DNA from: Bacteroidales bacterium
GTDB lineage: Bacteria > Bacteroidota > Bacteroidia > Bacteroidales > UBA932
Assembly (NCBI GenBank): GCA_017550025.1
Contig: JAFYLU010000014.1
Span: forward strand, 1 to 33,399
Direction of reading: 5' to 3'
DNA: 33,399 nucleotides
The notes under the pieces were generated by a model. That model was not told the DNA's origin. It was given only the letters and a program-made list of their open reading frames with translations, and ran no database searches. Made by a program: the position numbers and the translations under genes. Shown here piece after piece: positions 510 to 22,524 of this stretch (within the stretch, counting starts at the first letter, position 1; every line of letters starts with the position of its first letter).

Positions 510-1589
510 ATGAAGAAGATTTTCAGAAGTCTGTTTCTGACAGCGGTTGCAATGACGGCTTTCGCATCTTGTGATGACAAGGCCCGCAACACTGAAGAAC
601 TAATCGATCCTTGGCTTCGTGAGCGTACACCAGTCAATGTGAGACTCGAGTCTCAGATCGGTCCGGCAATCATTACCGGAGACTGGAGAAACGAAGAAGT
701 CGGTTCTGTATCGGTAAGTCTTATTACAGCCGGTTTGAATATGAAGGCTGTAAAGGTTGTTGCGCTGGACTTCAAGTATCCTGACAGCGAATTCTGTCCG
801 ACCGCAAGCATCGGCCCGGGCGATACAGTTGACTTGAGCGACGGATCGGCCGAATTTGTCGTGACTTCAGCTAACGGAGAGACGCGTACCTATACGCTGA
901 CGTACTCCGTATTTACCGACACCCTTGAGGGAAGCTACAGCTTCACAAAGGTTGGAGGTATACTCGATACATCAGGAGCGGTTCCGCTTGCGAGCCTTGT
1001 GATGATCGGTGGATTCGAAGGATGGGTTACCTATTGCCAGGTGATGGACAAGTATTGGATCTGGACCGGCGACTACAATCCTAGAGACGAAGACGACAAT
1101 ACGTTGAGCTTCAGACTCGAAAAGGCTGACGATCAGACTGGTGAGACATTCGGAACAATTGTGAATTCTGCTGGTCCTGATGGAAAATATGCAAACTACA
1201 TCTTCAAGGGCATCGACATCAATGAGGAATATCGCCTGATACCTGCCGGCAAGAGCCGCTGGGCCAAGCATGGTGACGGATACATTACAATCTATGCTTA
1301 TGAGGATTCAGGATATACCAAGCCACTGCATAAGCTTGAGCTTCTTGAGAAGGGCGAGCATAAGTACTGGTCTGAAACGCTTCAGGCTGAAGGCGGTTCT
1401 GCTGAAAAGATCGTGAATGTCCCTGAACTTGCGCTTCATCGCTCATTCGGTGAAGGTCCGTTCAACAATGAGACAAGCAACTGGGGCGACGAGCGTTGGT
1501 ATGCCAACAACATCCGCAACGTCTTCTGGCTTATAAAGAAGGACAGCGATTCACCACTTGAGAATCACGACGATTATCTTGCAAAGTAA
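510..1589 (+). CDS. PUL surface lipoprotein, putative glycan-binding
   Basis: A 359-residue lipoprotein: basic n-region, hydrophobic core, and a lipobox ending at Cys21, followed by acidic residues (C-D-D-K) as in surface-exported Bacteroidota lipoproteins. Residues about 40-135 form a beta-rich domain ending in G-E-T-R-T-Y-T-L-T-Y, as in the DUF5018-like repeats of PUL lipoproteins. From about residue 139 (L-E-G-S-Y) to the end there is a second domain. Its landmarks (A-G-P-D-G-K-Y, I-P-A-G-K-S-R-W, L-L-E-K-G-E-H-K-Y, then R-W-Y-A-N-N-I-R-N-V) match, in order, the modules in the lipoproteins at 17723 and 19969. No catalytic motif was recognised. Its place directly before the GH26 gene suggests a surface glycan-binding protein. 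The stop codon is 4 nt before the GH26 start, so the two are probably translationally coupled. The binding role is inferred. Confidence 0.7.
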   Translation: MKKIFRSLFLTAVAMTAFASCDDKARNTEELIDPWLRERTPVNVRLESQIGPAIITGDWRNEEVGSVSVSLITAGLNMKAVKVVALDFKYPDSEFCPTASIGPGDTVDLSDGSAEFVVTSANGETRTYTLTYSVFTDTLEGSYSFTKVGGILDTSGAVPLASLVMIGGFEGWVTYCQVMDKYWIWTGDYNPRDEDDNTLSFRLEKADDQTGETFGTIVNSAGPDGKYANYIFKGIDINEEYRLIPAGKSRWAKHGDGYITIYAYEDSGYTKPLHKLELLEKGEHKYWSETLQAEGGSAEKIVNVPELALHRSFGEGPFNNETSNWGDERWYANNIRNVFWLIKKDSDSPLENHDDYLAK

Positions 1590-1593
1590 GCTG

Positions 1594-3036
1594 ATGGGCA
1601 GGAATATGGGTATATCTGTTCTTACTGCGGCCGTTTCACTGATGGCTGTTTTGTCGTGTACAGACGGCAAGGAACAGTCGGGAGCATCTTCTGGTGAAAG
1701 GTTCATGACTGTTGAGGAAAGGATTGAGATAGATAATGCCGGTGGATCATTTGCGATCAACGTTAAGGCTAACTTTGATTTCAATGTGCAGTCACAGGAA
1801 GAGTGGATCGTATATGACAAGGTGGAAGGAGACAAGGTGTGGTTTACCGCCGAACCCAATGAGAATGTTGACAGCCGTATAGGAAAGGTGAGGTTCACAG
1901 ATCCTTCGGACAAGTATTTCTATAAGGAGGTCAGAGTCTCCCAGGAGGGCGATCCTTCCAATCTGTTCTCTTTGAGCATTGTCGATAAGAATGCCACTGC
2001 CGAGACAAAGGCCCTTTATGCAAATCTTTGGGATATTGCTGCAAGAGGCTTTATGTTCGGTCACCATGACGATCTCTGGTACGGACGCTACTGGTACAAT
2101 GAACCGGGCAAATCCGACACAAAGTCAGTATGCGGAGACTATCCGGGCGTATTCAGCGTTGATATGGGACCTATCATGGACGACAGACATAACAGCACTG
2201 AAAATGCAATCCGCCGCAGGGTCATCATCGAAGCCTATGACAGGGGAGAGGTAATCACTATGTGCTGTCACCTCAACAATCCTCACACCGGCGGCGATTC
2301 ATGGGATAATTCCAGCAACAAGGTGGTAAGCAGTATCCTGACAGAAGGTCATGCGACAAGGACGAAGTATCTTCAGTGGCTTGACAGATGTGCGGATTTT
2401 GCCAATAACTTGAGGGGTTCGGACGGAAAGCTGATACCGATAATATTCAGACCTTATCATGAGCATACCCAGACCTGGTCATGGTGGGGATCCAAGTGTA
2501 CTACTGAAGCCGAGTTCATCAGTTTCTGGAGATTCACTGTCGAATACTTGAGAGATGTAAAGCAGGTCAGGAACTTCATCTATGCGGTTTCACCACAGAT
2601 GGATGAGGTCTATTCAGATGCGAAGGGAAGACTTACTTTCCGCTGGCCTGGCGATGATTATGTCGATTTTATCGGAATGGATTGCTATCATTACAATTGG
2701 AAGGGAGCTTTCAAGAGTAACCTTGATGCGATGTCTGAACTCTCCAGGGAGAAGAAGAAACCATGTGGTGTCACTGAAACCGGACCGGAAGGATTTGACT
2801 GGACGGATTACTGGACCAACCATATCCTGGAGTGTGCAAAAGGACAGAGGGTCAGCATGATAGTGATGTGGAGAAACAAGTATGTCAGCAGTGAGAGCGA
2901 CAGACATTTCTACTCGGTATATCCGGGACATCCGTCGGAAGGCAATTTCCGCGATATGTACGATGATCCGTCTACATTCTTCAGCAAGGACCTTCCTGAC
3001 ATGTATGACATGCCTGCGAATTACCAGGTGAAATAG
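1594..3036 (+). CDS. GH26 endo-beta-1,4-mannanase lipoprotein
   Basis: A 480-residue GH26 enzyme. The ATG at 1594 is chosen over an upstream TTG at 1558: it gives a compact lipoprotein signal with Cys22 (L-S-C-T-D-G-K), and the TTG lies inside the preceding gene. Residues about 35-120 form a BACON-like beta domain (D-F-N-V-Q-S-Q-E-E-W-I). The catalytic barrel runs from about 122 to 470. The acid/base is Glu290 in R-P-Y-H-E-H-T and the nucleophile is Glu395 in V-T-E-T-G. The H-L-N-N-P motif and the W-S-W-W-G loop are also typical of GH26. The family mostly hydrolyses internal beta-1,4-mannosidic bonds; some members are mannobiohydrolases or have other activities. As a lipoprotein with acidic residues near the Cys it is probably on the cell surface and makes the first cut. 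It is the strongest evidence for a beta-mannan substrate in this locus. Confidence 0.9.
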   Translation: MGRNMGISVLTAAVSLMAVLSCTDGKEQSGASSGERFMTVEERIEIDNAGGSFAINVKANFDFNVQSQEEWIVYDKVEGDKVWFTAEPNENVDSRIGKVRFTDPSDKYFYKEVRVSQEGDPSNLFSLSIVDKNATAETKALYANLWDIAARGFMFGHHDDLWYGRYWYNEPGKSDTKSVCGDYPGVFSVDMGPIMDDRHNSTENAIRRRVIIEAYDRGEVITMCCHLNNPHTGGDSWDNSSNKVVSSILTEGHATRTKYLQWLDRCADFANNLRGSDGKLIPIIFRPYHEHTQTWSWWGSKCTTEAEFISFWRFTVEYLRDVKQVRNFIYAVSPQMDEVYSDAKGRLTFRWPGDDYVDFIGMDCYHYNWKGAFKSNLDAMSELSREKKKPCGVTETGPEGFDWTDYWTNHILECAKGQRVSMIVMWRNKYVSSESDRHFYSVYPGHPSEGNFRDMYDDPSTFFSKDLPDMYDMPANYQVK

Positions 3037-3082
3037 ACCTATATTCCTATATATAGATTATTAATAACAAAATATAACCAAA

Positions 3083-6000
3083 ATGACCAAATCACTCAAA
3101 TTATTTCTGCTAAGCTGCATCATGTTGCTTTGCGGAGCCATTGGCGGTCAGCTCTATGGTCAGAACAGGACTGTCAGTGGTGTTGTGCATGACGATATGG
3201 GGGAACCATTGTTTGGCGCATTTGTAGTTGAGAAAGGTACGACTAATGGAGTTTCGACTGACCTTGACGGTAAGTATTCCATTACTGTATCTTCAGACAA
3301 TGCCGTACTTGAGTTCCAGTTTATCGGTTTAAGGACACAGGAGATATCGGTTCGTGAGGGGCAGAGACTTCTGCTCGTCCAGATGGAAACTGATGCCAAT
3401 CTGATGGAAGAAGTCGTTGTGACGGCTTTTGCAACCCAGAAGAAGATCAATGTGACAGGTGCCATTTCAGCCGTGAACGGTAATGACCTTGTTGCTGCTC
3501 CTGTGGCAAACATCTCTAATGCCCTCATCGGTAACACTCCTGGTGTCAGCGGTCTTCAGACTTCCGGTGAGCCTGGACGTAACGAGTCCAGCATCTTTGT
3601 GCGTGGTGTCTCGACTTATGGAGAATCAACTCCTCTCATCATCATCGACGGTGTCGAGCAGGCGTCGGAGCAGGCTTTTGCAGCATTCAATGCAATGGAT
3701 GCGAATGAAATCGCAAGTATTTCAGTCCTGAAGGATGCATCTTCGACTGCGGTGTACGGTGTGCGTGGTGCGAACGGTGTCATCATCGTCACTACAAAGC
3801 GCGGTAATGTCGGCAAGCCTACTATCAGTGCTTCTGCGAATTTCGGTCTTACTGCAGCTTCGCAGCTTCAGGAGGGTACAACCGCTTATGAATATGCACT
3901 TTTCAGAAACGAGGCTATCCGCAACGAGCAGAGAAGTTATGCCGGTAATGACGGACTTTCCAACAATATCTTCGACGACTATGACCTCTGGAAGTTCAAG
4001 AACAACAGAGACTTCACGCCTCAGGAAGTAGACGGCATGACCCAGCTTACTCCTGAACAGAAGGAGCAGCTCAAGAACACTCCTGCGCTCTATTATGCAT
4101 CGCGTAACCTTTACAAGGAGCAGTTCAACAGAGTGGCACCTCAGTATCAGGCCAATATCAATATCAGCGGCGGTACTGACAGAGTCAAGTACTTCGTGTC
4201 GTTCGGTTACTTCCGTCAGGAAGGTATCACCAACGCTGTCGAGTACTATGGTTCGGAGACCGGTTCTACATTCAACCGTTACAACTTCCGAAGCAACTTC
4301 GATATCAAGATTACCGACAACCTCAAGATCACAGTCAATTCAGCCGGTCAGTTCGGTGAAACTACAGGACCTGGTAACGTTGCTGACCCATACAACATTT
4401 CAGAGCGTTACAAGATCATCATGCAGTACATCTACGATTCCAATCCGTTCATCTCGCCTGGTATCATAGATGGAAAGCTCATCAGCGGCTTTGCAGGTTC
4501 TACAAGCCTTATCCAGAACCCTCTCGCTACCAAGGTGGACAGTAAGATCGGTATGCAGAATGCCCTCTACAACCTCCTGAACAGTGGTTCCGGAACAATC
4601 TACAACAGCCTTCTCGACAACTCGATAAAGCTCGACCATACGATGGATTACATTCATCCGAACCTCAGGCTTTATGCAACTGTATCTTATCAGGACAACT
4701 ACAACCGTTATGTGAAGTTTACTCCTTCCATACCTTCATATACAGTGCAGCGCAGCATGGCAGATCCTAATGTGCTCGAATTCTTCGGAGGATCGATGGG
4801 AGCAGGTTCATTCAGCTCATATGGTTACAGTAACTGGAACAAGCTCTATATGGATGCCGGAATCGACTGGCATGAGTCATATGGAAAGCATAACGTTTCT
4901 GCCCTCCTCCTCGGAAAGGCTTCACGTTACACCATGCCAGGCGACTCATATCACGTACCTTCAGGTATCATGGGTTTTGTAGGTCGCGTTACCTATAATT
5001 ATGATGACCGCTACATGCTCGAGGTAAATGCCGGTTACAACGGTACCGAGCAGTTCGCAGAGGGCAAGCGCTTCGGTCTCTTCCCTGCGGTTTCTGCCGG
5101 TTGGGTGCCTTCAAAGGAAAAATGGTTCCCAAAGAACGACATTCTTTCATTCATGAAGATCCGCGGTTCATACGGTGAGGTCGGTAATGACCGTCTTGGT
5201 GGATCAAGAAGATATTACTTCCTTCCTAACACATATAACCTCAATCAGACAGGTTATTACCTTGGAAACAGTAACGGTTCAAACAAGAACCCATACTTCT
5301 ACGGTGCAACAGAAGGTGTGCTCGGTAATCCGGACATCACATGGGAAAGATCGAGGAAGTATGACGCCGGTATCGAGACCAAGTTCTTCAACAGCCGTCT
5401 TTCTGTGGACTTCGACTACTTCTATGAGAAACGAGACAACATCCTTACCACTCTCGGTATAATTCCGGGTATCTATGGTGTTCCGGCAAGTTCCGTACCT
5501 CCTGCAAACGTGGGTATCACCCAGAACCAGGGATATGAGCTTGTGCTTAACTGGTCTGACACAGTCGGAGACCTTACATACTCTATCGGAGGTGATGTCA
5601 GCTGGACACGTAACAAGATCATCTACAAGGCAGAGGCTAACAATCCATATCCATGGATGAGTGCGACCGGTCATGCTATCGGACAGCGTTTCGGTCTTGT
5701 AAGCGATGGACTCTTCAATACCCAGGAGGAGCTTGCCAACCGTCCTTACAATACCTTTACTTCAAACCTTGCGACTCTCGGAGATATCCGTTACAAGGAT
5801 CTTGACGGAGACGGTCTTATCAATCAGAACGACAAGGCTCCTATCGGATTCCCTAACTATGCACAGTATCACTTCAATGTGAAGCTTCATCTCGCATACA
5901 AGGGATTCGACCTCAGAATGCTCTTCACCGGTTCGGCTAACGGTTCATACTATCTGAACAGCGGTTACACAATGCCGTTCTTCAAGAACGCGGGTAATGC

Positions 6001-6370
6001 ATGGCTCTGGCAGTATGAGGGACGCTGGACTCCGGAGAAGTATGCTGCTGGAGAGGAAATCACATATCCTCGTGCTACATACAGCCCTACAACAGCGCAT
6101 AACAATTATCTCCAGAGCGACTACTGGATGGTATCTACAAATCACTTCAAGCTCAAGAATGTCGAGCTCGGCTATACATTCAATGTGGAAAGAGGTGTCC
6201 TCAGCCAGCTTCAGGTGCAGTCTCTCAGAGTGTTCATGACAGCTAACAATGTCTACACATTCAAGAATGCCTTGACTCCTTACGGAATCGATCCTGAGAC
6301 TACAGACGGAAGCGCTTATGTATATCCTCTTACACGAGTAGTTACCTTCGGTCTTAATCTGCGTTTCTAA
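3083..6370 (+). CDS. SusC-like TonB-dependent outer-membrane transporter 1
   Basis: A 1095-residue SusC-family transporter with a Sec signal peptide (cleavage near Y-G-Q, residue 26). Residues about 29-110 are a carboxypeptidase-regulatory-like N-terminal extension (T-V-S-G-V-V-H-D through G-L-R-T-Q-E). A TonB-box-like stretch E-E-V-V-V-T-A-F follows near residue 113. The plug has I-S-V-L-K-D-A-S-S-T-A-V-Y-G-V-R-G-A-N-G-V, the SusC signature. The remaining roughly 850 residues are the beta barrel, ending in the C-terminal aromatic L-N-L-R-F. SusC proteins import oligosaccharides across the outer membrane using TonB energy, with a SusD lid. The gene lies 46 bp after the GH26 stop, in an AT-rich gap with no terminator, and 9 bp before its SusD partner. 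The substrate, mannan-derived oligosaccharides, is inferred from the neighbouring enzymes. Confidence 0.95.
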   Translation: MTKSLKLFLLSCIMLLCGAIGGQLYGQNRTVSGVVHDDMGEPLFGAFVVEKGTTNGVSTDLDGKYSITVSSDNAVLEFQFIGLRTQEISVREGQRLLLVQMETDANLMEEVVVTAFATQKKINVTGAISAVNGNDLVAAPVANISNALIGNTPGVSGLQTSGEPGRNESSIFVRGVSTYGESTPLIIIDGVEQASEQAFAAFNAMDANEIASISVLKDASSTAVYGVRGANGVIIVTTKRGNVGKPTISASANFGLTAASQLQEGTTAYEYALFRNEAIRNEQRSYAGNDGLSNNIFDDYDLWKFKNNRDFTPQEVDGMTQLTPEQKEQLKNTPALYYASRNLYKEQFNRVAPQYQANINISGGTDRVKYFVSFGYFRQEGITNAVEYYGSETGSTFNRYNFRSNFDIKITDNLKITVNSAGQFGETTGPGNVADPYNISERYKIIMQYIYDSNPFISPGIIDGKLISGFAGSTSLIQNPLATKVDSKIGMQNALYNLLNSGSGTIYNSLLDNSIKLDHTMDYIHPNLRLYATVSYQDNYNRYVKFTPSIPSYTVQRSMADPNVLEFFGGSMGAGSFSSYGYSNWNKLYMDAGIDWHESYGKHNVSALLLGKASRYTMPGDSYHVPSGIMGFVGRVTYNYDDRYMLEVNAGYNGTEQFAEGKRFGLFPAVSAGWVPSKEKWFPKNDILSFMKIRGSYGEVGNDRLGGSRRYYFLPNTYNLNQTGYYLGNSNGSNKNPYFYGATEGVLGNPDITWERSRKYDAGIETKFFNSRLSVDFDYFYEKRDNILTTLGIIPGIYGVPASSVPPANVGITQNQGYELVLNWSDTVGDLTYSIGGDVSWTRNKIIYKAEANNPYPWMSATGHAIGQRFGLVSDGLFNTQEELANRPYNTFTSNLATLGDIRYKDLDGDGLINQNDKAPIGFPNYAQYHFNVKLHLAYKGFDLRMLFTGSANGSYYLNSGYTMPFFKNAGNAWLWQYEGRWTPEKYAAGEEITYPRATYSPTTAHNNYLQSDYWMVSTNHFKLKNVELGYTFNVERGVLSQLQVQSLRVFMTANNVYTFKNALTPYGIDPETTDGSAYVYPLTRVVTFGLNLRF

Positions 6371-6379
6371 ACTAAAAGA

Positions 6380-8221
6380 ATGAACAAGATGAAAAATATA
6401 ACTAAAATATTGGCAGTTATCGGTCTTCTTGCCCTGACATCCTGCGACTTCTTCCTTCAGAAGCCGGATACGACAGGTAATGTTGACCGTGACGCAGTCT
6501 TCAGCTCAAAGAAGAATGCTGAAGCTGCATTGATGTCCTGCTATTCGAACGCCTTGGTTCATGGCCTTCCCGGAGGTCTGGGTTACACCCACGGTACTCT
6601 TGGAGCCATCTCGGGCGAGATCAACAGGGGAGCCAGCTGGCATGGAACATACTTCATCGCTCAGCAGGGACTTAATGTCAACGGAGCAGGATCTGATGCT
6701 ACTGACTCGGCCAACGGCTCAAGTGCTGGTTCGGAGAACTGGGCAAAGAACTGGAGCGTTATCAGACAGTGCTTTATCGTGAAGGAGAACATCGATAAGG
6801 TTGCCGACATGAGTCAGGATGACAAAGACGTCATCAAGGCAGAGGTTACGGCTCTCATTGCCTATAGATACATGGGTATGTTCTACCGTTATGGCGGCGT
6901 TCCTGTCGTTACAAGATCTTTCGAGGCATCAGACGACCTTACAGCAGGCCGAGTTTCACTCGAAGAGACACTTCAGTACATCCTTGATCTTTGCGATGAA
7001 GCTCACGCAGGTCTTCCTGCAAAGTGGGATGCAGCCAATACAGGCCGCATGACCCAGGGTGTAGTGCTTGCAATCAAGGCAAGAGCCCTTATGTATGCAG
7101 CGCGTCCTCTCTTCAACAGAGCGACTCCTTATCTTGACTTCGGTGAGAATAACAACCTCATCTGTTTCGGCAATGCTGACAAGGAGCGTTGGAATGATGC
7201 CATTGAAGCTAATGAGGCAGTGCTTACATGGGCCGCTGCAAACGGAGTGTCACTTATCAATACCGGTGATGCGTTCAAGGACTATGCTACTGCAACATCG
7301 ACTCCGGGCAACAAGGAAGTCATTCTTGCATTCAAGAACAACAGTACATCACAGGACTACAGCACATATGTATTCCTTTATAATAACTGTTCTGCTTACT
7401 GGACATGGAACCGCTTCGATAATGGTGAGTCAGGAGTTCTTTCGAACCATATAAAGTATTATTATAAGAAGGACGGTTCAGAGATGAAATGGCCTGTATA
7501 TGGAAATCAGACTCCAAGGTCAGGTGCTGAATGGATTGAAAATGTTGCCGATCTCGAGCCGAGAGCTCTTGCTGACATCAAGTTCGCAGGTCACGATGCC
7601 ATGAACAACACCGGTGACACCAAGTGGACAAGCCTCGGATGGGGACGCAACGGCTATGACGGAAAGATCGGTATGGGTGATGCCTTCCCTAACAGCGTGG
7701 GCGGTTCTGACAAGGGACAGCTTTCAGGTGAAAGGACAAAGTTCTATTACAAGGCCGGTTCAAGAACATGGTTCGAGTTCCCTCTCTTCCGTCTTGCAGA
7801 GACATATCTCAATCTTGCGGAAGCTTACAATGAGTACGGTAACAGCGGCAAGGCTCTTGAAAACCTCAATAAGGTGCATCAGCGCGCAGGTCTTCCTGCT
7901 GTGACCGAGACCAATCAGAGCAAACTCAGGGAGATTATCCAGAGAGAGAAGTTCATTGAGTTCTTTGGCGAGAACCACAAGTATTTCGATGTAAAGCACT
8001 GGATGCGTGAGGATATCGGTGATGGTATCTGCGGCGGGTCGATGCGTGCCTTTACATTCAATATCAAGGCCGGTGCGACATGGCCTTACGACAAGAGCAC
8101 AATCGACACTTGGTGGGAGACTGAATACTATCAGGCTTTCTGGTCTCCGGCAATGTACCTTGAACCATTCCCTCAGTCAGAGGTGAACAAGGGAACAATC
8201 ACTCAGAATCCAGGTTATTAA
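6380..8221 (+). CDS. SusD-like glycan-binding lipoprotein 1
   Basis: A 613-residue SusD/RagB-family lipoprotein (lipobox Cys22 in A-L-T-S-C-D-F-F). It has the N-terminal helical TPR-like region with the V-I-A-Y-R-Y-M-G-type motif (here L-I-A-Y-R-Y-M-G) and the C-terminal RagB/SusD block: F-R-L-A-E-T-Y-L-N-L-A-E-A-Y, then I-I-Q-R-E-K-F-I-E-F and the K-Y-F-D-V-K-H-W motif. It should form the hinged lid over SusC1 and bind oligosaccharide at the cell surface. A second in-frame ATG at 6389 gives an equally good signal peptide, so the start may be 9 nt later. At 613 residues it is somewhat longer than many SusD proteins, and longer than its paralogue at 11049. Confidence 0.95.
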   Translation: MNKMKNITKILAVIGLLALTSCDFFLQKPDTTGNVDRDAVFSSKKNAEAALMSCYSNALVHGLPGGLGYTHGTLGAISGEINRGASWHGTYFIAQQGLNVNGAGSDATDSANGSSAGSENWAKNWSVIRQCFIVKENIDKVADMSQDDKDVIKAEVTALIAYRYMGMFYRYGGVPVVTRSFEASDDLTAGRVSLEETLQYILDLCDEAHAGLPAKWDAANTGRMTQGVVLAIKARALMYAARPLFNRATPYLDFGENNNLICFGNADKERWNDAIEANEAVLTWAAANGVSLINTGDAFKDYATATSTPGNKEVILAFKNNSTSQDYSTYVFLYNNCSAYWTWNRFDNGESGVLSNHIKYYYKKDGSEMKWPVYGNQTPRSGAEWIENVADLEPRALADIKFAGHDAMNNTGDTKWTSLGWGRNGYDGKIGMGDAFPNSVGGSDKGQLSGERTKFYYKAGSRTWFEFPLFRLAETYLNLAEAYNEYGNSGKALENLNKVHQRAGLPAVTETNQSKLREIIQREKFIEFFGENHKYFDVKHWMREDIGDGICGGSMRAFTFNIKAGATWPYDKSTIDTWWETEYYQAFWSPAMYLEPFPQSEVNKGTITQNPGY

Positions 8222-8228
8222 AATATAG

Positions 8229-11045: not shown

Positions 11046-11048
11046 AGA

Positions 11049-12713: not shown

Positions 12714-12722
12714 CAGACAGAT

Positions 12723-13265: not shown

Positions 13266-13268
13266 GAC

Positions 13269-14912
13269 ATGAAGAAGATCATTACAGCAGCATTTGCACT
13301 TCTCATTGCCGCAGGCATGAGCGCACAGATCACATCTGTTACCCCTTCAGCGACAAAGGTAAAACAGTACGATGCAGTATTCTTCGAAGTTGCCCTTACT
13401 GGAGAATGGGATAACCCATATCTTCAGGAGGAGGCAGCTCTCGATATGGTCCTCACGGCACCTTCAGGCAAGGAACTCGTTCTCCCATGTTTCTATAAGG
13501 AGGGAGAAAGCGGAGCCGAGAGTACATGGGAGGCAAGATTCACTCCGCAGGAGAAGGGAAAGTATACTTACTTCTTCCGTTACACACAGGACGGACAGGT
13601 GGCTTCAGAGTCTGCTCCTGCTACATTCAAGTCTCGCAGAAGCAAACTTCAGGGTATCCTTCATGTCCGCGATAACTGGACCCTCGTTTATGACAACGGA
13701 CAGCCGTTCAGAGGTGTAGGCATCAACCTCTGCTGGGAGTCACGTACGCAGGATGACTCGAAGTTCTTCTCTGATCTTCACGAGCAGCACGACAGATTCA
13801 ACTTCGATGCGATGCTCCCGGATTTCGCAAAGAACGGAGGTAACTTCACCCGTATGTGGATCTGTGACTGGAATTTCCCTATTGACAGACAGACGGGTTT
13901 CAACAACCACCGTTATGAGGAGACAACAGAGTATATGAACCGCAGTGCAGTAGAGCGTCTTGACCATGTCGTGAATCTCTCTGAAGAACTCGGAATCAAG
14001 ATCATGCTCTGCATGGGTCAGGGTAAGGTCGTTGCCGACCAGGCCTTCTTTACATGTCCTGATGCAAAGGTGAGATACAGGAACTATCTCCGTTATATCG
14101 TGGCAAGATGGGGTTACAGCCCTGCAATCGCTATGTGGGAGTTCTTCAATGAGATCGACAATGTTCAGCATAATGCACCGGACGGAGTCATCCCGGCTGA
14201 ATATATCGTTGCATGGCACGATGAGATGAGTACATATCTCGCTGGTCTCGATCCTTTCCAGCACATCAGAACAACTTCGATCTCGCATCGTGACCTCGAA
14301 GGCCTCAATGACCTTCCGAACCTCGACATCAACCAGAAGCATATCTATAATGCGACCCATGTGGTTCCGGAAACAATCGACGCCTACATCGCAAAGCACA
14401 ACAAACCATATATAGTAGGTGAGGTCGGCTATGAGTGGGACTGGTCAAAGAATTTCGATGATTTCGCAGACGGAATGAACATGGACTTCCGCAGGGCATT
14501 CTGGTATGGTCTCTTCAGCCAGACCGCCCTTACACCGATGACATGGTGGTGGGAGTGGTTCGACGAGCACAAGATGATCCCATACATGCAGAATGCACGC
14601 CTTGTAAGCGATATGATGCTCAAGGCCGGCAAGGGAGACTTCCAGAAGTTCCAGACTGTGAAGAACGGCAAGGCCGAGGCTTATGCAGTACGTTGCGGAA
14701 AGAAGACATTCGTATATGTCTACAACGGAAATGAGGAAGTACTTGATGAAATAAGTGTTGAAATCGGTAAGACAGGCAAGGTAAAGGTTTCTGTTCTTGA
14801 TCCGGAGAATGTGAAGTTTGTAAAGTCATCTCCAATGAAGTCAGACGGAACCTTGAAGTTTGAAGGACTCGGTCTTAACAAATGGGAAGAAAAGATATTT
14901 GTAATAAAATAA
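13269..14912 (+). CDS. DUF5060 + GH5-like (clan GH-A) glycosidase, secreted
   Basis: A 547-residue enzyme with a cleavable signal peptide (A-G-M-S-A-Q, about residue 20) and no lipobox Cys, so probably periplasmic. Residues about 22-120 are an Ig-like DUF5060 domain (Y-D-A-V-F-F-E-V, then W-E-A-R-F-T-P and G-K-Y-T-Y-F-F). The (beta/alpha)8 barrel follows (G-V-G-I-N-L-C-W). Glu295 in W-E-F-F-N-E-I-D is the clan GH-A acid/base, and Glu385 in I-V-G-E-V-G-Y is the likely nucleophile. Conserved W-W-W-E-W-F sits near the barrel end, and a small beta domain closes the protein from about residue 450. Related proteins are annotated as GH5-like or simply DUF5060 enzymes. In this locus an endo- or exo-beta-mannanase acting on imported oligosaccharides is likely, but substrate cannot be read from sequence. 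It sits 3 bp after the small lipoprotein gene and 5 bp before the GH2 start. Confidence 0.8.
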   Translation: MKKIITAAFALLIAAGMSAQITSVTPSATKVKQYDAVFFEVALTGEWDNPYLQEEAALDMVLTAPSGKELVLPCFYKEGESGAESTWEARFTPQEKGKYTYFFRYTQDGQVASESAPATFKSRRSKLQGILHVRDNWTLVYDNGQPFRGVGINLCWESRTQDDSKFFSDLHEQHDRFNFDAMLPDFAKNGGNFTRMWICDWNFPIDRQTGFNNHRYEETTEYMNRSAVERLDHVVNLSEELGIKIMLCMGQGKVVADQAFFTCPDAKVRYRNYLRYIVARWGYSPAIAMWEFFNEIDNVQHNAPDGVIPAEYIVAWHDEMSTYLAGLDPFQHIRTTSISHRDLEGLNDLPNLDINQKHIYNATHVVPETIDAYIAKHNKPYIVGEVGYEWDWSKNFDDFADGMNMDFRRAFWYGLFSQTALTPMTWWWEWFDEHKMIPYMQNARLVSDMMLKAGKGDFQKFQTVKNGKAEAYAVRCGKKTFVYVYNGNEEVLDEISVEIGKTGKVKVSVLDPENVKFVKSSPMKSDGTLKFEGLGLNKWEEKIFVIK

Positions 14913-14917
14913 GTCAC

Positions 14918-17716
14918 ATGACAGTCAGGAATCACTTTGTCTCTCTTCTGCTTGCAATGGTATTTGCCGTAACGGCAAGTGCCCAGAATCCTCACAAGCA
15001 GATGCTGTCTACCAACTTCGGTCTGCCTTCTCCGCAGCCGAAGGAGACTCTGCCGGTATCATCTGTGCCGGTGGAGTTCCCTCAGCTCAAGGAAAAGACT
15101 GCGGTACAGACAGTATTGTGCAATGTGTCGGAAAACGTCTGGAAGATCACTTCCGGATGGGAACTCTGTGAGGGAGACAAGGTCATGACTGATGAATGGT
15201 ACAATGCAACAGTACCAGGAACAGTCCTCACTACACTTGTAGACCAGGGTGTATATCCTGATCCGTATTACGGACTGAACAATCTTGCAATTCCGGAAGA
15301 CCTCTGCCGTAAAGACTGGTGGTACAGATGCTCTTTCAATCTGCCGGAAGAAATGCTGGCAAAGGAAAGTCTCGAACTGCTTTTCAACGGCATTAACTAT
15401 AGGGCTGACGTGTGGCTGAACGGAAAGAAGCTCGGAAATATTGCCGGTGCATTCATCCGCGGAAGATTTGAGATCACTGATCTTGCGCAGGCTGAAAACA
15501 CCTTGGCGGTGCACATATATCCGCCGGCAAATCCGGGAATTCCTCACGAGCAGTCTCCAAGGTCCGGAGGCGGAAAGAACGGAGGTTCACTCTGCCTTGA
15601 CGGTCCGACATTCATCTGTTCAGAAGGATGGGACTGGATGCCGGGAGTCAGAGACAGGAATATAGGTATCTGGCAGGATGTGCAGCTCGTGGCAACTGAC
15701 GGCATTTCATTCGGAGACACTCATGTGATTACAGACCTTCCTCTTCCGGATGTGAGCTATGCTGACCTTACAGTCAAGACTTCACTCAAGAACAGTCTTG
15801 ATTCAGATCAGACAGTTCTCCTGGAGGGTAAGATCGGCGATCTCATCTGTTTCTCACAGGCAGTCGATGTTCCTGCTGGCGCTCAGGTGCCGGTGGAAGT
15901 GTCGGAGCTGGTGCTGTCAAATCCTGAGCTTTGGATGCCGAACGGATATGGTGATCCTAATATGTATGAACTTGAGTTGATCTGCGTTCTCGGCGACAAG
16001 GTTTCAGATACTCAGGTGACACGTTTCGGTGTGAGGGAATTGTCATACGAACTCACAGTGGACGCTCCGTCTGCAAAGGGAATCAGAATCGAGCATAATC
16101 CGCTCGCAGACAACCACATCGGCCAGCTCCTTGACCACAGAATGCTCAGAGACACTCTCGGCGGCCTTCATATTCCTTCTCTTTCAGAGGGACTCGATGT
16201 CAAGGATGTGACTGTGATTCCGAATGAAGGAATGAGCCCATACCTTATAATCAAGGTAAACGGCGTGAGGATTTTCTGCCGCGGCGGCAACTGGGGAATG
16301 GATGACATGATGAAGAATGTGTCAAGAGAGCATCTTGAGCCATACTTCATCCTCCACAAGGAGGCCAACTTCAATATGATCCGCAACTGGACAGGAGCAA
16401 GCACATCGGAGAACTTCTATGATCTCTGCGATGAGTACGGTATGCTGGTGTGGAACGACTTCTGGATCTCTACAGAGGGATTCAACCTCGATCCGCTTGA
16501 TGAGGATCTGTTCATGCGTAATGCCACAGACGTCGTAAGACGTTTCGGCCACCACCCGTCCATCGTGATGTGGTGTCCTCGCAACGAGGGTTACGCTACG
16601 GAGACTCTTGAGAGAAGACTCTCGGCGATGATCCACAAGGAAGACGTGACTCGCAGATATCATCCGAACTCGCGCAACTGCAACATGCGTTGGAGCGGTC
16701 CTTGGCACTACTACAAGGACGCAAGCGTCTACTATTATTACGACGCTCACGGATTCAACTCGGAGATCGGATCGCCTTCAGTGCCGACGGCTGCGTCGAT
16801 GAGAAAGATGATGCCAGAGGCAGACCAGTGGCCTATTTCAGACACATGGCATTACCACGACCTCCTGAACGGTCTTGACGAATATGTGGCAGCTGTCGAC
16901 AGACTCTACGGAAAGGCAGAGAGCCTCGACGACTTCTGTTCAAAGGTACAGTTCATCAATTACGACAGCTACAGGGCGATGTTCGAATCATGGAACAGCG
17001 TCATGTGGGCAGACGGCTCCGGAGTGCTTCTGTGGATGTCTCATCCGGCTTGGCCGAGCGTAGAATGGCAGACCTATTCATGGGACTATGAGACATTCGG
17101 ATCGTATTACGGCTCACGCAAGGCTTGCGAGCCTGTGCATGTGCAGATGAATCTGGATGACCACGATGTTGTGGTGCTGAACACTACGACTTCAGCTCTT
17201 GCTGACATGAAGGTAAGCCTGGCTTGCTACGATCTTGCCGGAAATAAGCTTTCTGCAAAGACTGTCAAGGACATTGACGTGCCTGCAAACTCGAAGCTCG
17301 AACTTTTCAAGGCGGAGCTCGACGGTCTTGAGGGCAACTATATGGTCCGTCTGGTTCTTTCAGACAGAAAGGGCAAGGTTGTCACAGTCAACGACTACAT
17401 GATGCGAGGTGAAGGCACAGAAGACTTCACTGCATTCAACAATGTGGGTAAGGCACAGATCAAGGCACGCAGGGTCTCATCGAAGGATGGATTGACCAGA
17501 TATGAGATTACAAATGTTTCAAGAAATATAGCAATGAACCTCAAGTTCAATCTTTGTGATCCGAAGACAGGGGAAATCATACTGCCCGCATATTTCAGCG
17601 ACGGTTATTTCCATCTCCTTCCTGGTGAGAAGAGGACGATAGAGGTACACTCACCTTCAGCCGGAGAAATCATGGTGGAAGGCTATAATGTAGATAATAC
17701 AACATTAAAATTATAA
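14918..17716 (+). CDS. GH2 glycosidase, beta-mannosidase / exo-glucosaminidase-like
   Basis: A 932-residue GH2 enzyme. The start is set at ATG 14918 because it begins a clean signal peptide (V-T-A-S-A-Q, about residue 24); an upstream ATG at 14882 lies inside the preceding gene and would place 12 polar residues before the signal. Domains in order: a sugar-binding-like jelly roll (about 50-230, with W-L-N-G-K-K-L and D-R-N-I-G-I-W-Q-D-V), an immunoglobulin-like sandwich, the TIM barrel (about 400-700), and C-terminal beta domains. Glu557 in W-C-P-R-N-E-G is the acid/base and Glu616 in F-N-S-E-I-G is the nucleophile. The overall pattern resembles the GH2 branch of beta-mannosidase, mannosylglycoprotein endo-beta-mannosidase and exo-beta-D-glucosaminidase, not beta-galactosidase. 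With GH26 and GH5-like neighbours, beta-mannosidase activity in the periplasm is the best guess. Confidence 0.87.
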   Translation: MTVRNHFVSLLLAMVFAVTASAQNPHKQMLSTNFGLPSPQPKETLPVSSVPVEFPQLKEKTAVQTVLCNVSENVWKITSGWELCEGDKVMTDEWYNATVPGTVLTTLVDQGVYPDPYYGLNNLAIPEDLCRKDWWYRCSFNLPEEMLAKESLELLFNGINYRADVWLNGKKLGNIAGAFIRGRFEITDLAQAENTLAVHIYPPANPGIPHEQSPRSGGGKNGGSLCLDGPTFICSEGWDWMPGVRDRNIGIWQDVQLVATDGISFGDTHVITDLPLPDVSYADLTVKTSLKNSLDSDQTVLLEGKIGDLICFSQAVDVPAGAQVPVEVSELVLSNPELWMPNGYGDPNMYELELICVLGDKVSDTQVTRFGVRELSYELTVDAPSAKGIRIEHNPLADNHIGQLLDHRMLRDTLGGLHIPSLSEGLDVKDVTVIPNEGMSPYLIIKVNGVRIFCRGGNWGMDDMMKNVSREHLEPYFILHKEANFNMIRNWTGASTSENFYDLCDEYGMLVWNDFWISTEGFNLDPLDEDLFMRNATDVVRRFGHHPSIVMWCPRNEGYATETLERRLSAMIHKEDVTRRYHPNSRNCNMRWSGPWHYYKDASVYYYYDAHGFNSEIGSPSVPTAASMRKMMPEADQWPISDTWHYHDLLNGLDEYVAAVDRLYGKAESLDDFCSKVQFINYDSYRAMFESWNSVMWADGSGVLLWMSHPAWPSVEWQTYSWDYETFGSYYGSRKACEPVHVQMNLDDHDVVVLNTTTSALADMKVSLACYDLAGNKLSAKTVKDIDVPANSKLELFKAELDGLEGNYMVRLVLSDRKGKVVTVNDYMMRGEGTEDFTAFNNVGKAQIKARRVSSKDGLTRYEITNVSRNIAMNLKFNLCDPKTGEIILPAYFSDGYFHLLPGEKRTIEVHSPSAGEIMVEGYNVDNTTLKL

Positions 17717-17722
17717 ACTAAT

Positions 17723-19933
17723 ATGAGAAGAATCACAATTCTTTGCATGGCGCTGGCTATGACAGCGTTTGCATTAAGCAGCTGCGCTTACCAGGATTGG
17801 GTGCCGGAGCCTTCGAAGGGAGGTTCCGACAGCGGAAACGATTCCGGTCTGGTAATCCCTGCAGTAACTGACTTTTCTGTGTATGCTTCGATTGCACAGA
17901 CCAAGTCGGTAGTTTCCGAGGAGGGTGGTCTCGCATGGACGGCTGGTGACCTCATCAATGTATTCCACGGAGTATCAGGTGAGGCGGAACTGGTTTCTGA
18001 CGGAGTGGTTTTCTTTAACCCAAGGTCAGAGAAGCCGAATGAGTTCCTCGGCAAGCTCGGAAAGGAACTGAAGAGGGGATATACCTATGACTGGTACATC
18101 TTCTATCCTTACAACGAAGAGCTTGGTATCGTTGACAACACAAGTGCCGCGATTATCGGTTCGAAGGCTGACAAGGCTCAGATTCAGCAGGGCTATGGCA
18201 ACAGGGCTCATGTTTCAGGAGACTATATGCCTCTCTTCGGTACTGCTACAGGTGTTGAGGAAGGAAAGACTCCGCATGCGGAACTCCACCACCTTTCTTC
18301 AGTCATTGAACTGAACATCGCCAGCTGTATGCCTACCCCTGTCGAGATCACAGAGGTCAAGGTTACTGCCGGTGAGGCAATCGTCGGTCAGTTCGTCTTC
18401 GATTTCATCAAGGGAACAGTGACTCCGGTAGAAGGCTCTTCAAGCAATACCGCTACCCTCACTGTCAAGGAGGCCGCAACTCTTCAGAACGGCGAGTCTG
18501 CCAAGTTCTATCTCATTGTAAAGCCATTCACAGCAAAGGCTGCTGACGGTCTTACAATTTCTGTAAACGGCAGCGAGAAGCAGATCTCTCTCAATGAGGA
18601 TCTCGTGTTTGCTCCAGGAAAGATGACGTCGATCGACTATACTTACTACGATGTTACCCAGATTCAGGACAGCCTCCTCGGCAAGTTCAGAATCAAGACA
18701 ATGTGGGTATACGGAGGTACAGGTGCAGAGTATGGCGGAGCCGGATGGGTTGACATCTACAACAAGCCATGGTGGTTCGACCAGGCTTCCGGACACAGCA
18801 TTACAGCTGAACTTGACAATTATCTCGAGTTCACTCTTACAGACCTCCTCGACGGTGGTAACAAGCTTACAGGTAAGTGTGTCAACTGGGCAGGTGAGGA
18901 CGGCAAGAACTGGAGCTGCTACTTCCACAACTCACAGATCAACGGTGGAGACCCTACTGACGGTAACGCACTCTATCGTCATATTCCGATCGGAGAGAGC
19001 ACGTGGGTACGTGACCTTACCGTAACTCCTAACACTGTTACATTCACTGACGCATGGGGTAATGTGACAGTAGTCGAGGTATTTGAGCCTGTTCATACAT
19101 TCGTGCCAGGATACAATGACAGTAACGCTGCCGGCAACACTCGTACTTTCCCAAGAACTGACGGTGATGACCTTACATTCCACGCCAAGGTAACTGCAGG
19201 AAAGGACAACTGGACTACAATCTACAATGAAATCGACAAGGTTTATGACAGACCTCGCGACTTCTTCGTGGATGTTGACAGAGTTGACGAGATCCCTGCG
19301 GCTGCCAAGACTTATGAGAAGCCATATGAGCCTGCAAGTCCATATCCGGAGACTATAGCAGGTACATACAAGTACAAATCTGATGTCACTTACGGTGGTA
19401 AGGACGGTGCAATTACAGGTAAGGGACTTACTGTTCAGTATGCTACATGGCAGCCAGCTGCAGAGCATGTGAACAAGATGAAGAATGACCTGTATACATT
19501 CACTCCTACAGGTACTGATGCTTATCAGAATGAGGTCGGAACTGTATCATTCGATGACGGTGGCGACGGTACATGGGAATACCAGCTGTACGACAACCAG
19601 AACGGAAACAAGGAGTACAATGGTATCGAGCTTTATGGCTTCATCGCTCATGACGGTTCGACAACATATGTATATGACAGAGCTGCAAGAACCATTACCT
19701 TCACAACAAGAGGTAAGGAATATGTTGTGGATTACCTGATCCCGGGATCACATAAATATCACGGTCTGTCGACTGCAGATGCAACAGCTGTAGTTCCTGA
19801 ATCCGGATTCGGTATGCACTATGACATGGGCTATACCGAAGCTCGAGTAGAAGGATATGGCACAACATCAAACGGTTTTGCACGTCACTATGTATGGGCA
19901 CGCGATTGGGTCCTCTGTCTCGAAAGACAATAA
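17723..19933 (+). CDS. PUL lipoprotein: fimbrillin-like N-terminus plus two lipocalin-like modules
   Basis: A 736-residue lipoprotein (Cys21, L-S-S-C-A-Y-Q-D). Residues about 45-305 resemble fimbrillin-family proteins: L-A-W-T-A-G-D-L-I-N-V-F, F-Y-P-Y-N, L-H-H-L-S-S-V-I-E-L-N-I, and F-A-P-G-K-M-T-S-I-D-Y-T. The rest is two modules, A (about 315-530) and B (about 543-736). Each starts with a L/I-x-G-x-[YF]-[KR] motif and passes through T-V-T-F-T or T-I-T-F-T to a P-(G/V)-x-H-x-[YF] strand. Both are closely matched in the next gene. Trp and Tyr residues are abundant (W-V-Y-G-G-T-G, P-W-W-F-D), as in carbohydrate-binding surfaces. No catalytic motif was found. It is most likely a surface glycan-binding protein. 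It starts 6 bp after the GH2 stop and is 35 bp before its paralogue, so it belongs to the same operon. Confidence 0.75.
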   Translation: MRRITILCMALAMTAFALSSCAYQDWVPEPSKGGSDSGNDSGLVIPAVTDFSVYASIAQTKSVVSEEGGLAWTAGDLINVFHGVSGEAELVSDGVVFFNPRSEKPNEFLGKLGKELKRGYTYDWYIFYPYNEELGIVDNTSAAIIGSKADKAQIQQGYGNRAHVSGDYMPLFGTATGVEEGKTPHAELHHLSSVIELNIASCMPTPVEITEVKVTAGEAIVGQFVFDFIKGTVTPVEGSSSNTATLTVKEAATLQNGESAKFYLIVKPFTAKAADGLTISVNGSEKQISLNEDLVFAPGKMTSIDYTYYDVTQIQDSLLGKFRIKTMWVYGGTGAEYGGAGWVDIYNKPWWFDQASGHSITAELDNYLEFTLTDLLDGGNKLTGKCVNWAGEDGKNWSCYFHNSQINGGDPTDGNALYRHIPIGESTWVRDLTVTPNTVTFTDAWGNVTVVEVFEPVHTFVPGYNDSNAAGNTRTFPRTDGDDLTFHAKVTAGKDNWTTIYNEIDKVYDRPRDFFVDVDRVDEIPAAAKTYEKPYEPASPYPETIAGTYKYKSDVTYGGKDGAITGKGLTVQYATWQPAAEHVNKMKNDLYTFTPTGTDAYQNEVGTVSFDDGGDGTWEYQLYDNQNGNKEYNGIELYGFIAHDGSTTYVYDRAARTITFTTRGKEYVVDYLIPGSHKYHGLSTADATAVVPESGFGMHYDMGYTEARVEGYGTTSNGFARHYVWARDWVLCLERQ
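18662..19933 (+). repeat. Copy 1 of the two-module (A+B) C-terminal half shared between adjacent lipoproteins
   Basis: This segment encodes modules A and B of the lipoprotein at 17723 and is homologous to 21229-22524 in the next gene. Shared blocks include W-V-Y-G-G-T-G, Y-G-G-A-G-W-V-D, T-W-V-R-D, V-T-P-N-T-V-T-F-T-D, D-S-N-A-A, R-T-F-P-R-T, G-G-K-D-G-A-I-T, Y-T-E-A-R-V and F-A-R-H-Y-V-W-A-R. Similarity is also visible in the DNA. Most changes are at third codon positions and in loops, which fits an old tandem gene duplication rather than recent gene conversion. Confidence 0.85.
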
Positions 19934-19968
19934 AATCACTAATACATAAATAACTAAAACATCTTGTA

Positions 19969-22524
19969 ATGAAAAGATTTTTATCAATTTTGAGCCTTGT
20001 TATCTTAGGCTTTGTATCGACAGCATGCTATGACGATACAGACATCAGAGAGGCTATCGACGATCTCGATGGACGAGTTACGACTCTCGAGACTATCTGC
20101 ACAGAGCTGAATTCAAACATTTCAGCCCTTACAACTCTGGTTCAGGCAATGCAGAAGGGTGACTACGTGGTAAGCGTATCACCTCTCATCGAGGATGGTG
20201 AAGATGTCGGATTCCGTATTGTATTCAAGGAGAACGGCGTTGTAGACCTCTATCATGGTAAGAATGGTGCTGACGGTGAGGATGGTAAAGATGGTACTGA
20301 CGGTACTGATGGTAAGGACGGTGCTGACGGTAAGGACGGTGCTGATGGTGCAGACGGTAAGGACGGACACACTCCTGTTCTTGGAACAAAGCAGGATACT
20401 GACGGTGCTTATTACTGGACTATCGACGGAGAGTGGGTTCTTGATGGAGAAGGCAAGAAGATTCCTCTCATCACCAAGGGCGCAACTCCTGAACTTAAGA
20501 TCGAGAACAATACATGGTATGTTACTTATGACGGACAGACTTGGGAGGAAGTAGGAGCAGCTGTAGCAGTAGGTATCAAGAGCATTGATACTGTAGACGG
20601 CAACCTTGTTATTACAATGGCTGACGGAAATGAGATTGCAATTCCTCTCGGAAGCCCTATGAAGGTCGTTCTCGGCGATTTCGATGCAACAGCACTTCAG
20701 TATGGCGCTGACCTTGAGATTCCTTATACTATTGAAGGTGTTGAGGGTGATGTAGTCGTATTCCTTCTTAAGGAAGGTGCTGCATTTGAGGCTGAACTTG
20801 TTGAGGAGTCAGCTCTTGCAGGAAAGGTTGTTGTAAAGCAGCTTGCAGCCGGTGTTGAAGAGGCAAAGGGCAAGGTCGGTATCTTCGCTTCTGCAGAAGA
20901 CGGAACAACAGTTTCTCAGGCTGTAAGATTCGTTTCAGGTGTGTTCTACGAGGCTGAAGGCAACCAGGCAGAGTACGCAGTTGACGGAAAGGGCGGAAAG
21001 GTTGAATTCAAGATTGCAACCAACGGTACATTCGCAGTGGAGACAGGCGCAGACTGGATCTCTTATGTTCAGACAAAGGCTGTCGAGGAGAAGACTCTCG
21101 AGTTCAATGTGGCAGCAAATGAGGGTGAGGCAAGAACTGCAGAGGTGAAGATTACTTCAGGCGAACTCGAACTCGGCTTCACTGTTGCCCAGGCAGCAGC
21201 AGAAGTAGGCGGTGAAGAGGAATTTGTAGAGACTCTCGCTGGCGCATACAAGATCCAGAAGTTCTGGGTATACGGTGGTACTGGCCCTGCATACGGCGGC
21301 GCAGGCTGGGTTGACCTTCACAACAAGACATGGTGGTTCGACGAGGCTACAGGCCATGGTATCAAGGCTGAGCTTGACAACTATATCGAGTTTACTTTCA
21401 CAGAAGTAAATGCAGACAGGACACAGAGTACCGGTACATGTGTGAACTGGGCAGGTAAGGATGGAAAGAACTGGGATACTTGGTTCTACAATAACAAGAA
21501 GTCTGACGGAACAGAGCGTAATCCTGAGGCTCCAAAGGACGGATCGAACTTCTATCGTCAGATTCCTATCGGAACAAGCACATGGGTACGTGACTACACA
21601 GTAACTCCTAACACTGTAACATTCACAGACGCAGAAGGCCGCAAGACTGTTCTCGATCTTCTCGAGCCAGGTTATGAGTTCACTACAGACAAGTATGGTG
21701 ACTCTAACGCTGCCGCTAACAAGCGCACATTCCCAAGAACAGAGGGCGACGACCTTACATTCCATGTGAAGCTTTCAGGTTGGAAGGAGGTATGGCCAGC
21801 AAGATACAGCGAGCTTGACAAGGTATTCGACTGTCCACGCGAGTTCTTCATCGACGTTGACAAGGTTGACGAGGTTCCTGCAGAATCAAAGACTTCTGAA
21901 GGCAAGTGGGTTCCAGAACTTCCGGAGCCAGAAGAACCAGAGGTTGTTGCTACCCTAGCAGGTACTTACAAGTTCAGAGATGGAAAGACTGTCGGTGGAA
22001 AGGACGGTGCTATCACAGCTAAGGGTCTTGTCGAGCAGTACGGTGGATGGGATCCTGTAAAGGCTTCTATCAACTCAATGAAGGATGACAAGTTCACTTT
22101 CACTGCAACAGGTAAAGATGCTGCCGGCAATGAGACAGGTACAGTGACATTCGACAAGGGTACTGACGGCGCTACATGGAACTACAAGCTCCTTGACAAC
22201 ATGAACGATAACAAGGAGTACGACGGTACAGACATGTACTGCATCCTTTCTATCGAGGGAACAACTACATATGTATACGACGCAACTGCAGGTACTGTAA
22301 CCCTCAACGCTGACGGTAGAGAGTATGTTGTGGAATTCCTCGCTCCTGGTACATACAAGTATTCTGGTCTTGATGTGACAGTTCCTTCAGCTGCTGCATT
22401 CGGATTCCACCTTGACCTTGGATACACTGAGGCTCGTGTTGCAGGTTACTCATCTACAGGCAACGGTTTCGCTCGTCACTATGTATGGGCTCGCCACCAT
22501 GTATTCTGCTTTGACAAGGAGTAA
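19969..22524 (+). CDS. PUL lipoprotein: DUF4988-like, collagen-like repeat, BACON, two lipocalin-like modules
   Basis: An 851-residue lipoprotein (Cys20, V-S-T-A-C-Y-D-D-T-D). Residues about 22-70 form a helical/coiled-coil start (I-D-D-L-D-G-R-V-T-T-L-E, N-S-N-I-S-A-L), then a DUF4988-like region with Y-Y-W-T-I-D-G-E-W near 145. This domain is found in PL29-type and other PUL lipoproteins. A collagen-like Gly-X-Y run occupies residues 97-135. A BACON-like domain is at about 330-413 (G-A-D-W-I-S-Y-V). Modules A (421-642) and B (660-851) match the preceding gene. The coiled coil and Gly-X-Y run suggest an extended, possibly trimeric stalk carrying glycan-binding heads (inference). No catalytic residues were recognised. 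It is the last gene of the PUL, followed by a terminator at 22548-22573. Confidence 0.78.
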   Translation: MKRFLSILSLVILGFVSTACYDDTDIREAIDDLDGRVTTLETICTELNSNISALTTLVQAMQKGDYVVSVSPLIEDGEDVGFRIVFKENGVVDLYHGKNGADGEDGKDGTDGTDGKDGADGKDGADGADGKDGHTPVLGTKQDTDGAYYWTIDGEWVLDGEGKKIPLITKGATPELKIENNTWYVTYDGQTWEEVGAAVAVGIKSIDTVDGNLVITMADGNEIAIPLGSPMKVVLGDFDATALQYGADLEIPYTIEGVEGDVVVFLLKEGAAFEAELVEESALAGKVVVKQLAAGVEEAKGKVGIFASAEDGTTVSQAVRFVSGVFYEAEGNQAEYAVDGKGGKVEFKIATNGTFAVETGADWISYVQTKAVEEKTLEFNVAANEGEARTAEVKITSGELELGFTVAQAAAEVGGEEEFVETLAGAYKIQKFWVYGGTGPAYGGAGWVDLHNKTWWFDEATGHGIKAELDNYIEFTFTEVNADRTQSTGTCVNWAGKDGKNWDTWFYNNKKSDGTERNPEAPKDGSNFYRQIPIGTSTWVRDYTVTPNTVTFTDAEGRKTVLDLLEPGYEFTTDKYGDSNAAANKRTFPRTEGDDLTFHVKLSGWKEVWPARYSELDKVFDCPREFFIDVDKVDEVPAESKTSEGKWVPELPEPEEPEVVATLAGTYKFRDGKTVGGKDGAITAKGLVEQYGGWDPVKASINSMKDDKFTFTATGKDAAGNETGTVTFDKGTDGATWNYKLLDNMNDNKEYDGTDMYCILSIEGTTTYVYDATAGTVTLNADGREYVVEFLAPGTYKYSGLDVTVPSAAAFGFHLDLGYTEARVAGYSSTGNGFARHYVWARHHVFCFDKE
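20257..20373 (+). repeat. Collagen-like Gly-X-Asp repeat in the coding sequence
   Basis: Thirteen consecutive Gly-X-Y triplets (residues 97-135 of the lipoprotein at 19969), eleven of them with Asp at Y and Lys, Ala, Thr or Glu at X. At the DNA level this is a degenerate 9-bp repeat of the form GGT-RMN-GAY. Codons vary between GAT/GAC and AAA/AAG, so it is not a perfect slip-prone tract. It ends in G-H-T-P before the Y-Y-W-T block. Confidence 0.9.
21229..22524 (+). repeat. Copy 2 of the shared A+B C-terminal half
   Basis: Homologous to 18662-19933. Module A begins at L-A-G-A-Y-K and module B at L-A-G-T-Y-K. An acidic, proline-rich linker (P-E-L-P-E-P-E-E-P-E) joins A to B here, where copy 1 has a shorter Pro/Tyr-rich linker. 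The final block F-A-R-H-Y-V-W-A-R ends both proteins, followed by a divergent 7-residue tail. Confidence 0.85.

Follow-up and report, generated by a model that had tools for sequence, protein, structure and literature searches.

The window analysed here is a stretch of 33,399 nucleotides, the entire contig JAFYLU010000014.1 within the 2.62 Mb draft genome of a Bacteroidales bacterium (GCA_017550025.1). Three of its genes encode putative lipoproteins, p510, p177 and p199 (starting at positions 510, 17723 and 19969; Table 1), which together carry five copies of a module of about 190 residues: one in p510 (M510) and a tandem pair, A and B, in both p177 and p199. We propose, with a probability of roughly 0.72, that this is an undescribed beta-mannan-binding module of surface glycan-binding proteins (SGBPs) in beta-mannan loci of the Bacteroidota. 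The binding role was proposed because of the place of the module in its loci, its tie to beta-mannan enzymes, its conserved aromatic residues and a distant relative joined to an esterase.

An earlier note, made from the DNA letters of the window, had claimed one module in five copies, and shuffles, profile scores and an alignment of the A and B profiles agreed with it. All 10 module pairs scored above all 300 shuffles. A hidden Markov model (HMM) was built from 75 A-type modules, namely A177, A199 and those of 73 further loci, including locus L074 with the nearest relative of M510 in the tree; loci L084–L087, the B modules of the window and M510 were left out of the seed. This HMM matched M510 with 78.8 bits (E 3.9e-22), B199 with 44.4 bits (E 1e-10) and B177 with 28.4 bits (E 3.9e-6), compared with 7.0, 9.7 and 8.1 bits for the best of 500 shuffles each. 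Below an E-value of 1e-3 it found no domain in 3481 reversed open reading frames (ORFs) and 119 in the same ORFs read forward. The A- and B-profiles aligned end to end (E 3.1e-20). In the window only p510, p177 and p199 matched at E below 1, and all module matches in the draft genome lay on the window contig. In the genome scan, M510 was matched at 969–1541 (E 2.5e-42) with a profile that contained M510 itself. Judged by these comparisons, the five copies are one homologous module. The ORFs had the positions that the note gave. The glycine block has the spacing G-x6-G-x-D-G and not x5 as in the note.

The module forms a real, statistically firm domain family, judged by its profile scores, and is nameless in the libraries searched, in line with the expectation that no named family would fit. 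Pfam gave nothing convincing for 40 module sequences (best match DUF6882, E 0.0034, in 3 of the 40), and a check for unrelated Pfam families found none for the modules. PDB profile searches over the module were equally unconvincing (best match a ryanodine receptor chimera, E 0.048), as were NCBIfam searches, which were run on full-length proteins only. An NCBIfam 'pullulanase' match on B177 (17.6 bits, cut-off 1042) was rejected since it looks like chance. The named domains found in the three lipoproteins were spacers only (DUF4988, collagen-like and BACON, in p199). Matches to DUF5018 occurred in 15 of 60 full-length single-module proteins, in the N-terminal half where coordinates were seen (L004, L134), and were absent from the matches of the 40 module-only sequences. 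Profile A3 matched the N-terminal part of PDB 8a9y chain T, a 'DUF4960 domain-containing protein' (E 3e-4, profile positions 2–131), which we take to be the levan SGBP of B. thetaiotaomicron. The two are alike in an N-terminal Ig-like spacer, and the match stops short of the C-terminal module. No description of the module was found in the literature searched, which covered neither most subscription papers nor CAZy itself.

Module relatives were located by scanning species-level genomes with two peptide patterns of the YGGTG branch. The patterns matched 122 stretches, 83 of which were confirmed, and the best 80 of these 83 gave 77 distinct loci. They included loci from Dysgonomonas, Seramator, Proteiniphilum, Flavobacterium, Gramella, Pedobacter, Mucilaginibacter, Sphingobacterium, Chitinophaga, Pontibacter, Reichenbachiella and uncultured Bacteroidales. 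Single-module lipoprotein genes (305–351 aa) were present in 59 loci and two-module genes (566–858 aa) in 16. Two further loci (L029 and L081) had no clean gene and a longer ORF on the other strand; they are outside these two counts and inside the 77. Within the order of the window the module was sparse, with 4 of 393 and 3 of 295 genomes in single-sequence searches and 7 of 393 in a profile search; across the phylum, the profile search found it in 3 of 395 (own genome counted throughout).

The single-module genes occupied a nearly fixed place, directly after SusD in 58 of 59 loci and after SusC–SusD in 57 of 59 (the first SusC- and SusD-like proteins of the window served as queries). The gene next to them encoded a glycoside hydrolase of family 26 (GH26) in 32 of 59 loci and a member of one of two enzyme-like families in 26. 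The window differs in placement: p510 precedes GH26 and SusCD, and p177 and p199 follow GH2. GH26 and GH130 are families of beta-mannan enzymes. GH26 was encoded in 64 of the 77 loci, GH130 in 54 and one or the other in 70, which ties the module to mannan more strongly than could be seen from the window. By class, GH26 or GH130 was found in all 59 single-module loci and in both L029 and L081. An enzyme-like family of about 490 residues (L017:9624–11084, L025:9581–11053) was present in 28 of 77 module loci. Its L017 copy had no Pfam match at 0.001 and no PDB match at 0.01; a homologue in L133, recognised by eye, matched GH5 (PF00150, E 2e-9). Counting GH26, GH130 or GH5-like genes, 76 of 77 loci were covered, including 15 of the 16 two-module loci.

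At E 1e-10, GH26 was found in just 49 of 247 genomes of the order, and the link between module and GH26 is therefore not background. All four module-bearing genomes among these (own included) had GH26, compared with 45 of 243 others (p 0.0014); with the own genome removed the count was 3 of 3 (p 0.007). The other three of the seven module genomes were taken to lie outside the 247.

Residues were numbered after the Seramator copy L012. Among 34 aligned modules of the A and M type (A/M), position 37 was W or F in all rows, and W112 and W173 were each present in 33; the only row without W173 was M510. The conserved tryptophans of A/M modules were 35, 37, 112 and 173; B modules have Trp at 37 and 80. 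In M510 we read an apparent insertion of about 14 residues after the first strand (MAFFT places its start differently), and several conserved residues of the C-terminal part are missing, e.g. W173 and D181; because of both features, it is chiefly the middle of M510 that can be aligned with confidence.

A distant relative provided the one case in which the module was joined to a carbohydrate-active enzyme. L133:5003–6973 (minus strand) matched over profile positions 3–117 (E 1.3e-11), and the rest of the protein consists of a region weakly matching fn3 (E 0.0086), then a carbohydrate esterase domain of the SASA type (PF03629, E 1.4e-32), then a sorting tail for type IX secretion. The same locus also holds a related copy after a SusD-like gene at 16035–16949.

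On this proposal, the module would be the glycan-gripping C-terminal end of surface lipoproteins, which elsewhere take the SusE position. A lipid anchor and spacers (Ig-like in p510; DUF4988, collagen-like and BACON in p199) would hold it off the outer membrane. Chains of beta-1,4-mannan would be bound through conserved aromatic and polar residues, with W35, W37, D48-N49, the G-x-D-G turn, Y102-R103, W112 and W173 as candidates. Chains held in this way would stay close to GH26 and to the SusCD importer.

Several observations weigh against a mannan-binding role. The 77 loci are biased to the YGGTG branch and contain many close kin, and the counts are not independent events. Seven of the 77, four of them with full flanks, lacked both GH26 and GH130. 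In the two-module loci, the branch of p177 and p199, GH26 or GH130 was found in only 9 of 16 (DNA fetched). M510 sits on a long branch with an unsure place in the tree; as W173 and further residues that hardly vary elsewhere are missing from it, its binding may be different or absent. Another distant relative (L134:4778–5668) follows SusC–SusD and adjoins GH30-like and GH5-like genes, as seen by eye; its branch may serve another glycan.

The tight synteny with SusC and SusD in 57 of 59 single-module genes would also suit a domain for docking or scaffolding, one that brings SusC, SusD and GH26 together in a surface complex and does not bind glycan itself. In keeping with this, Gly and Asp turns are among the most conserved features, besides aromatics. 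We consider such a domain unlikely: the two-module genes mostly do not adjoin SusD (2 of 16 lie directly after it), and in L133 the relative precedes an esterase that ends in a type IX sorting tail, a setting in which one would not expect docking to SusCD.

The earlier note had called the module lipocalin-like, a label that is unproven by the model and profiles. An AlphaFold2 model of p510 (60 sequences) had a mean pLDDT (predicted local distance difference test) of 82.8 and a pTM (predicted template modelling score) of 0.75. The module was modelled as mostly beta, with 12 strands of at least three residues, short helices and a helix before the last strand. By ten-residue block, its pLDDT was 87–94 at best, 49–81 in the first part (141–190) and 66–80 in some later blocks. 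Such a model and the opening L-x-G-x-[YWF] resemble calycins and would suit a true lipocalin or calycin barrel that holds a small ligand in its lumen and not a polysaccharide. The likeness to Lipocalin_4 (PF13648) ended at the short opening motif and the beta-rich character. When profiles were compared with four Lipocalin_4 sequences, E was 0.1 and 0.28; this test, which is weak and of low power, did not support a lipocalin identity. Pfam matches at E 0.1 for 40 members included no lipocalin family, and linkage to mannan enzymes does not suggest a small hydrophobic ligand. Taken together, a calycin appears very improbable.

CBM112, published in May 2026, is a module that lies inside GH26 enzymes and occurs as well in putative SGBPs encoded after susD, with residues W257, Q293, S295, K297, W301, Y310 and H339 (PMC13357471). 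We found GH26s with CBM112-like inserts in three genomes (L119, L120, L121). Four inserts were assigned to CBM112 by residue spacing: W13, Q49, S51, K53, W57 and Y66 are spaced exactly as published, whereas the counterpart of H339, H96, is displaced by one residue. L121:373–2451 (minus strand) carries two of them in tandem inside its catalytic domain; L119 and L120 carry single inserts. Both CBM112 and the module belong to Bacteroidota beta-mannan loci, but CBM112 differs in size (inserts of about 100–140 aa, the module about 190), in motif and in its usual position inside GH26. Its pattern of two Trp 44 apart with fixed polar neighbours (Q-8, S-6, K-4, Y+9) was found neither in A/M modules nor in B modules, whose Trp 37 and 80 are 43 apart and lack the rest. 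That the module is a diverged CBM112, despite the shared locus type, is the least probable reading of all, and this identity was rejected in favour of a different domain on hhalign comparisons with the four inserts (34 A/M modules: Prob 0.14, E 0.41; 13 B modules: Prob 0.19, E 0.32).

Returning to a mannan-binding SGBP module, a possible functional parallel comes from B. ovatus. Bacova_02094, the SusE-like protein of its galactomannan polysaccharide utilisation locus, was retarded by galacto- and glucomannan in affinity gels (PMC5217682). Like the window proteins it is a lipoprotein of a beta-mannan locus, and relatives of the window proteins sit after SusC–SusD. It differs from p177 and p199, which are larger, have two modules and lie at the far end of their locus.

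A second module was found in all 16 two-module genes (15 below E 1e-3; that of L073, cut by a contig end, at 0.061). Going by record titles, eight of these loci came from ruminants and two from horses. In two others, L086 and L087, two copies are contained in about 567 aa directly after SusD. In the tree, all 13 B modules formed one clade (support 100/100), A177 grouped with A199 and the A module of L066 (92/87), and M510 grouped with the Parabacteroides copy L074 (99/93), whose locus has the order GH26, lipoprotein, SusC, SusD, SusC, SusD. From the B clade and the grouping of A177 with A199 in this one tree, the tandem A–B duplication probably came before the duplication of the two-module gene. 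In the lineage of the window, a tandem A-then-B duplication would thus have been followed by duplication of the two-module gene into p177 and p199, giving several grips per locus. The B modules of the p199-type genes L071 (3521–4099) and L083 (2772–3341) argue against such a simple history, as they grouped with p177-type B modules (94/84). This grouping suggests exchange, possibly gene conversion, between neighbouring p177- and p199-type genes.

Most likely the module is new as a family and ordinary as a kind. A wider reading, to which we give even odds, is a new carbohydrate-binding module family whose main (YGGTG) branch is beta-mannan-specific and spread through SusE-position proteins of the Bacteroidota, with more distant branches devoted to other glycans and attached to secreted esterases, and which provides five grips per locus in the window lineage. 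If mannan binding is correct, there would be a name and a testable ligand for the half that does the binding in proteins likely to capture mannan, in Dysgonomonas, Flavobacterium, Pedobacter, Chitinophaga and uncultured Bacteroidales from the guts of ruminants and horses. Beta-mannan loci could also be recognised by the module sequence, a marker that is not flagged by the libraries used.

Table 1. Features of the window, with the basis of each assignment.
Feature	Position	Strand	Basis
Lipoprotein p510, 359 aa: signal peptide with Cys21, Ig-like spacer (~residues 40–135), one C-terminal module	510..1589	+	ORF, residue inspection, AlphaFold2, PDB profile match
Module M510, residues 139–344, divergent single copy	924..1541	+	Pairwise and profile tests
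GH26 (beta-mannanase family) with BACON-like N-terminal domain	1558..3036	+	PF02156 E 2e-37
SusC-like transporter	3083..6370	+	Sequence features, not Pfam
SusD-like lipoprotein	6380..8221	+	Sequence features
Second SusC-like transporter	8229..11045	+	Sequence features
Second SusD-like lipoprotein	11049..12713	+	Sequence features
DUF5060 protein, GH5-like	13269..14912	+	PF16586 E 2.5e-10
GH2 enzyme with mannosidase-type Ig domain	14882..17716	+	PF22666 E 7.5e-38, PF17786 E 5.6e-8
Lipoprotein p177, 736 aa, C-terminal modules A and B	17723..19933	+	ORF, pairwise and profile tests
Module A177	18665..19312	+	Profile E 2.1e-63 (sequence in seed)
Module B177	19349..19930	+	Profile E 3.9e-6 (not in seed)
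Lipoprotein p199, 851 aa: DUF4988 region, collagen-like G-x-y stretch, BACON, modules A and B	19969..22524	+	PF16378 E 2.2e-12; PF01391; PF13004 E 2.6e-10
Module A199	21229..21894	+	Profile E 7.3e-64 (sequence in seed)
Module B199	21943..22521	+	Profile E 1e-10 (not in seed)

The window reads as a beta-mannan utilisation locus with the order lipoprotein p510, GH26, two SusC/SusD-like pairs, DUF5060 protein, GH2, lipoproteins p177 and p199, and an alpha/beta-hydrolase. The SusC and SusD labels are putative and were given on sequence features. The BACON score of the GH26 protein (24.4 bits) was slightly below the cut-off of 25. The DUF5060 protein was called GH5-like because L045:10758–12425 matches both DUF5060 and GH5. 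The contig starts inside an ORF (1–459) whose end resembles, by eye, a SASA-type acetylesterase; since this ORF is broken, the contig may end before the locus does. Each of p510, p177 and p199 starts with a signal-peptide-like stretch ending in cysteine. A strict lipobox pattern matched p510 and p177 (Cys21 in both) and not p199, in which VSTAC is a relaxed form. The N-terminal half of p177 (17810–18652, residues ~30–310) had no Pfam match at E 1 and bears a faint resemblance to fimbrillin-like proteins. In p199, the collagen-like G-x-y repeat (20257–20367; PF01391, residues 97–133) adjoins the DUF4988 match, lies before the BACON domain (residues 355–409) and is perhaps a stalk.

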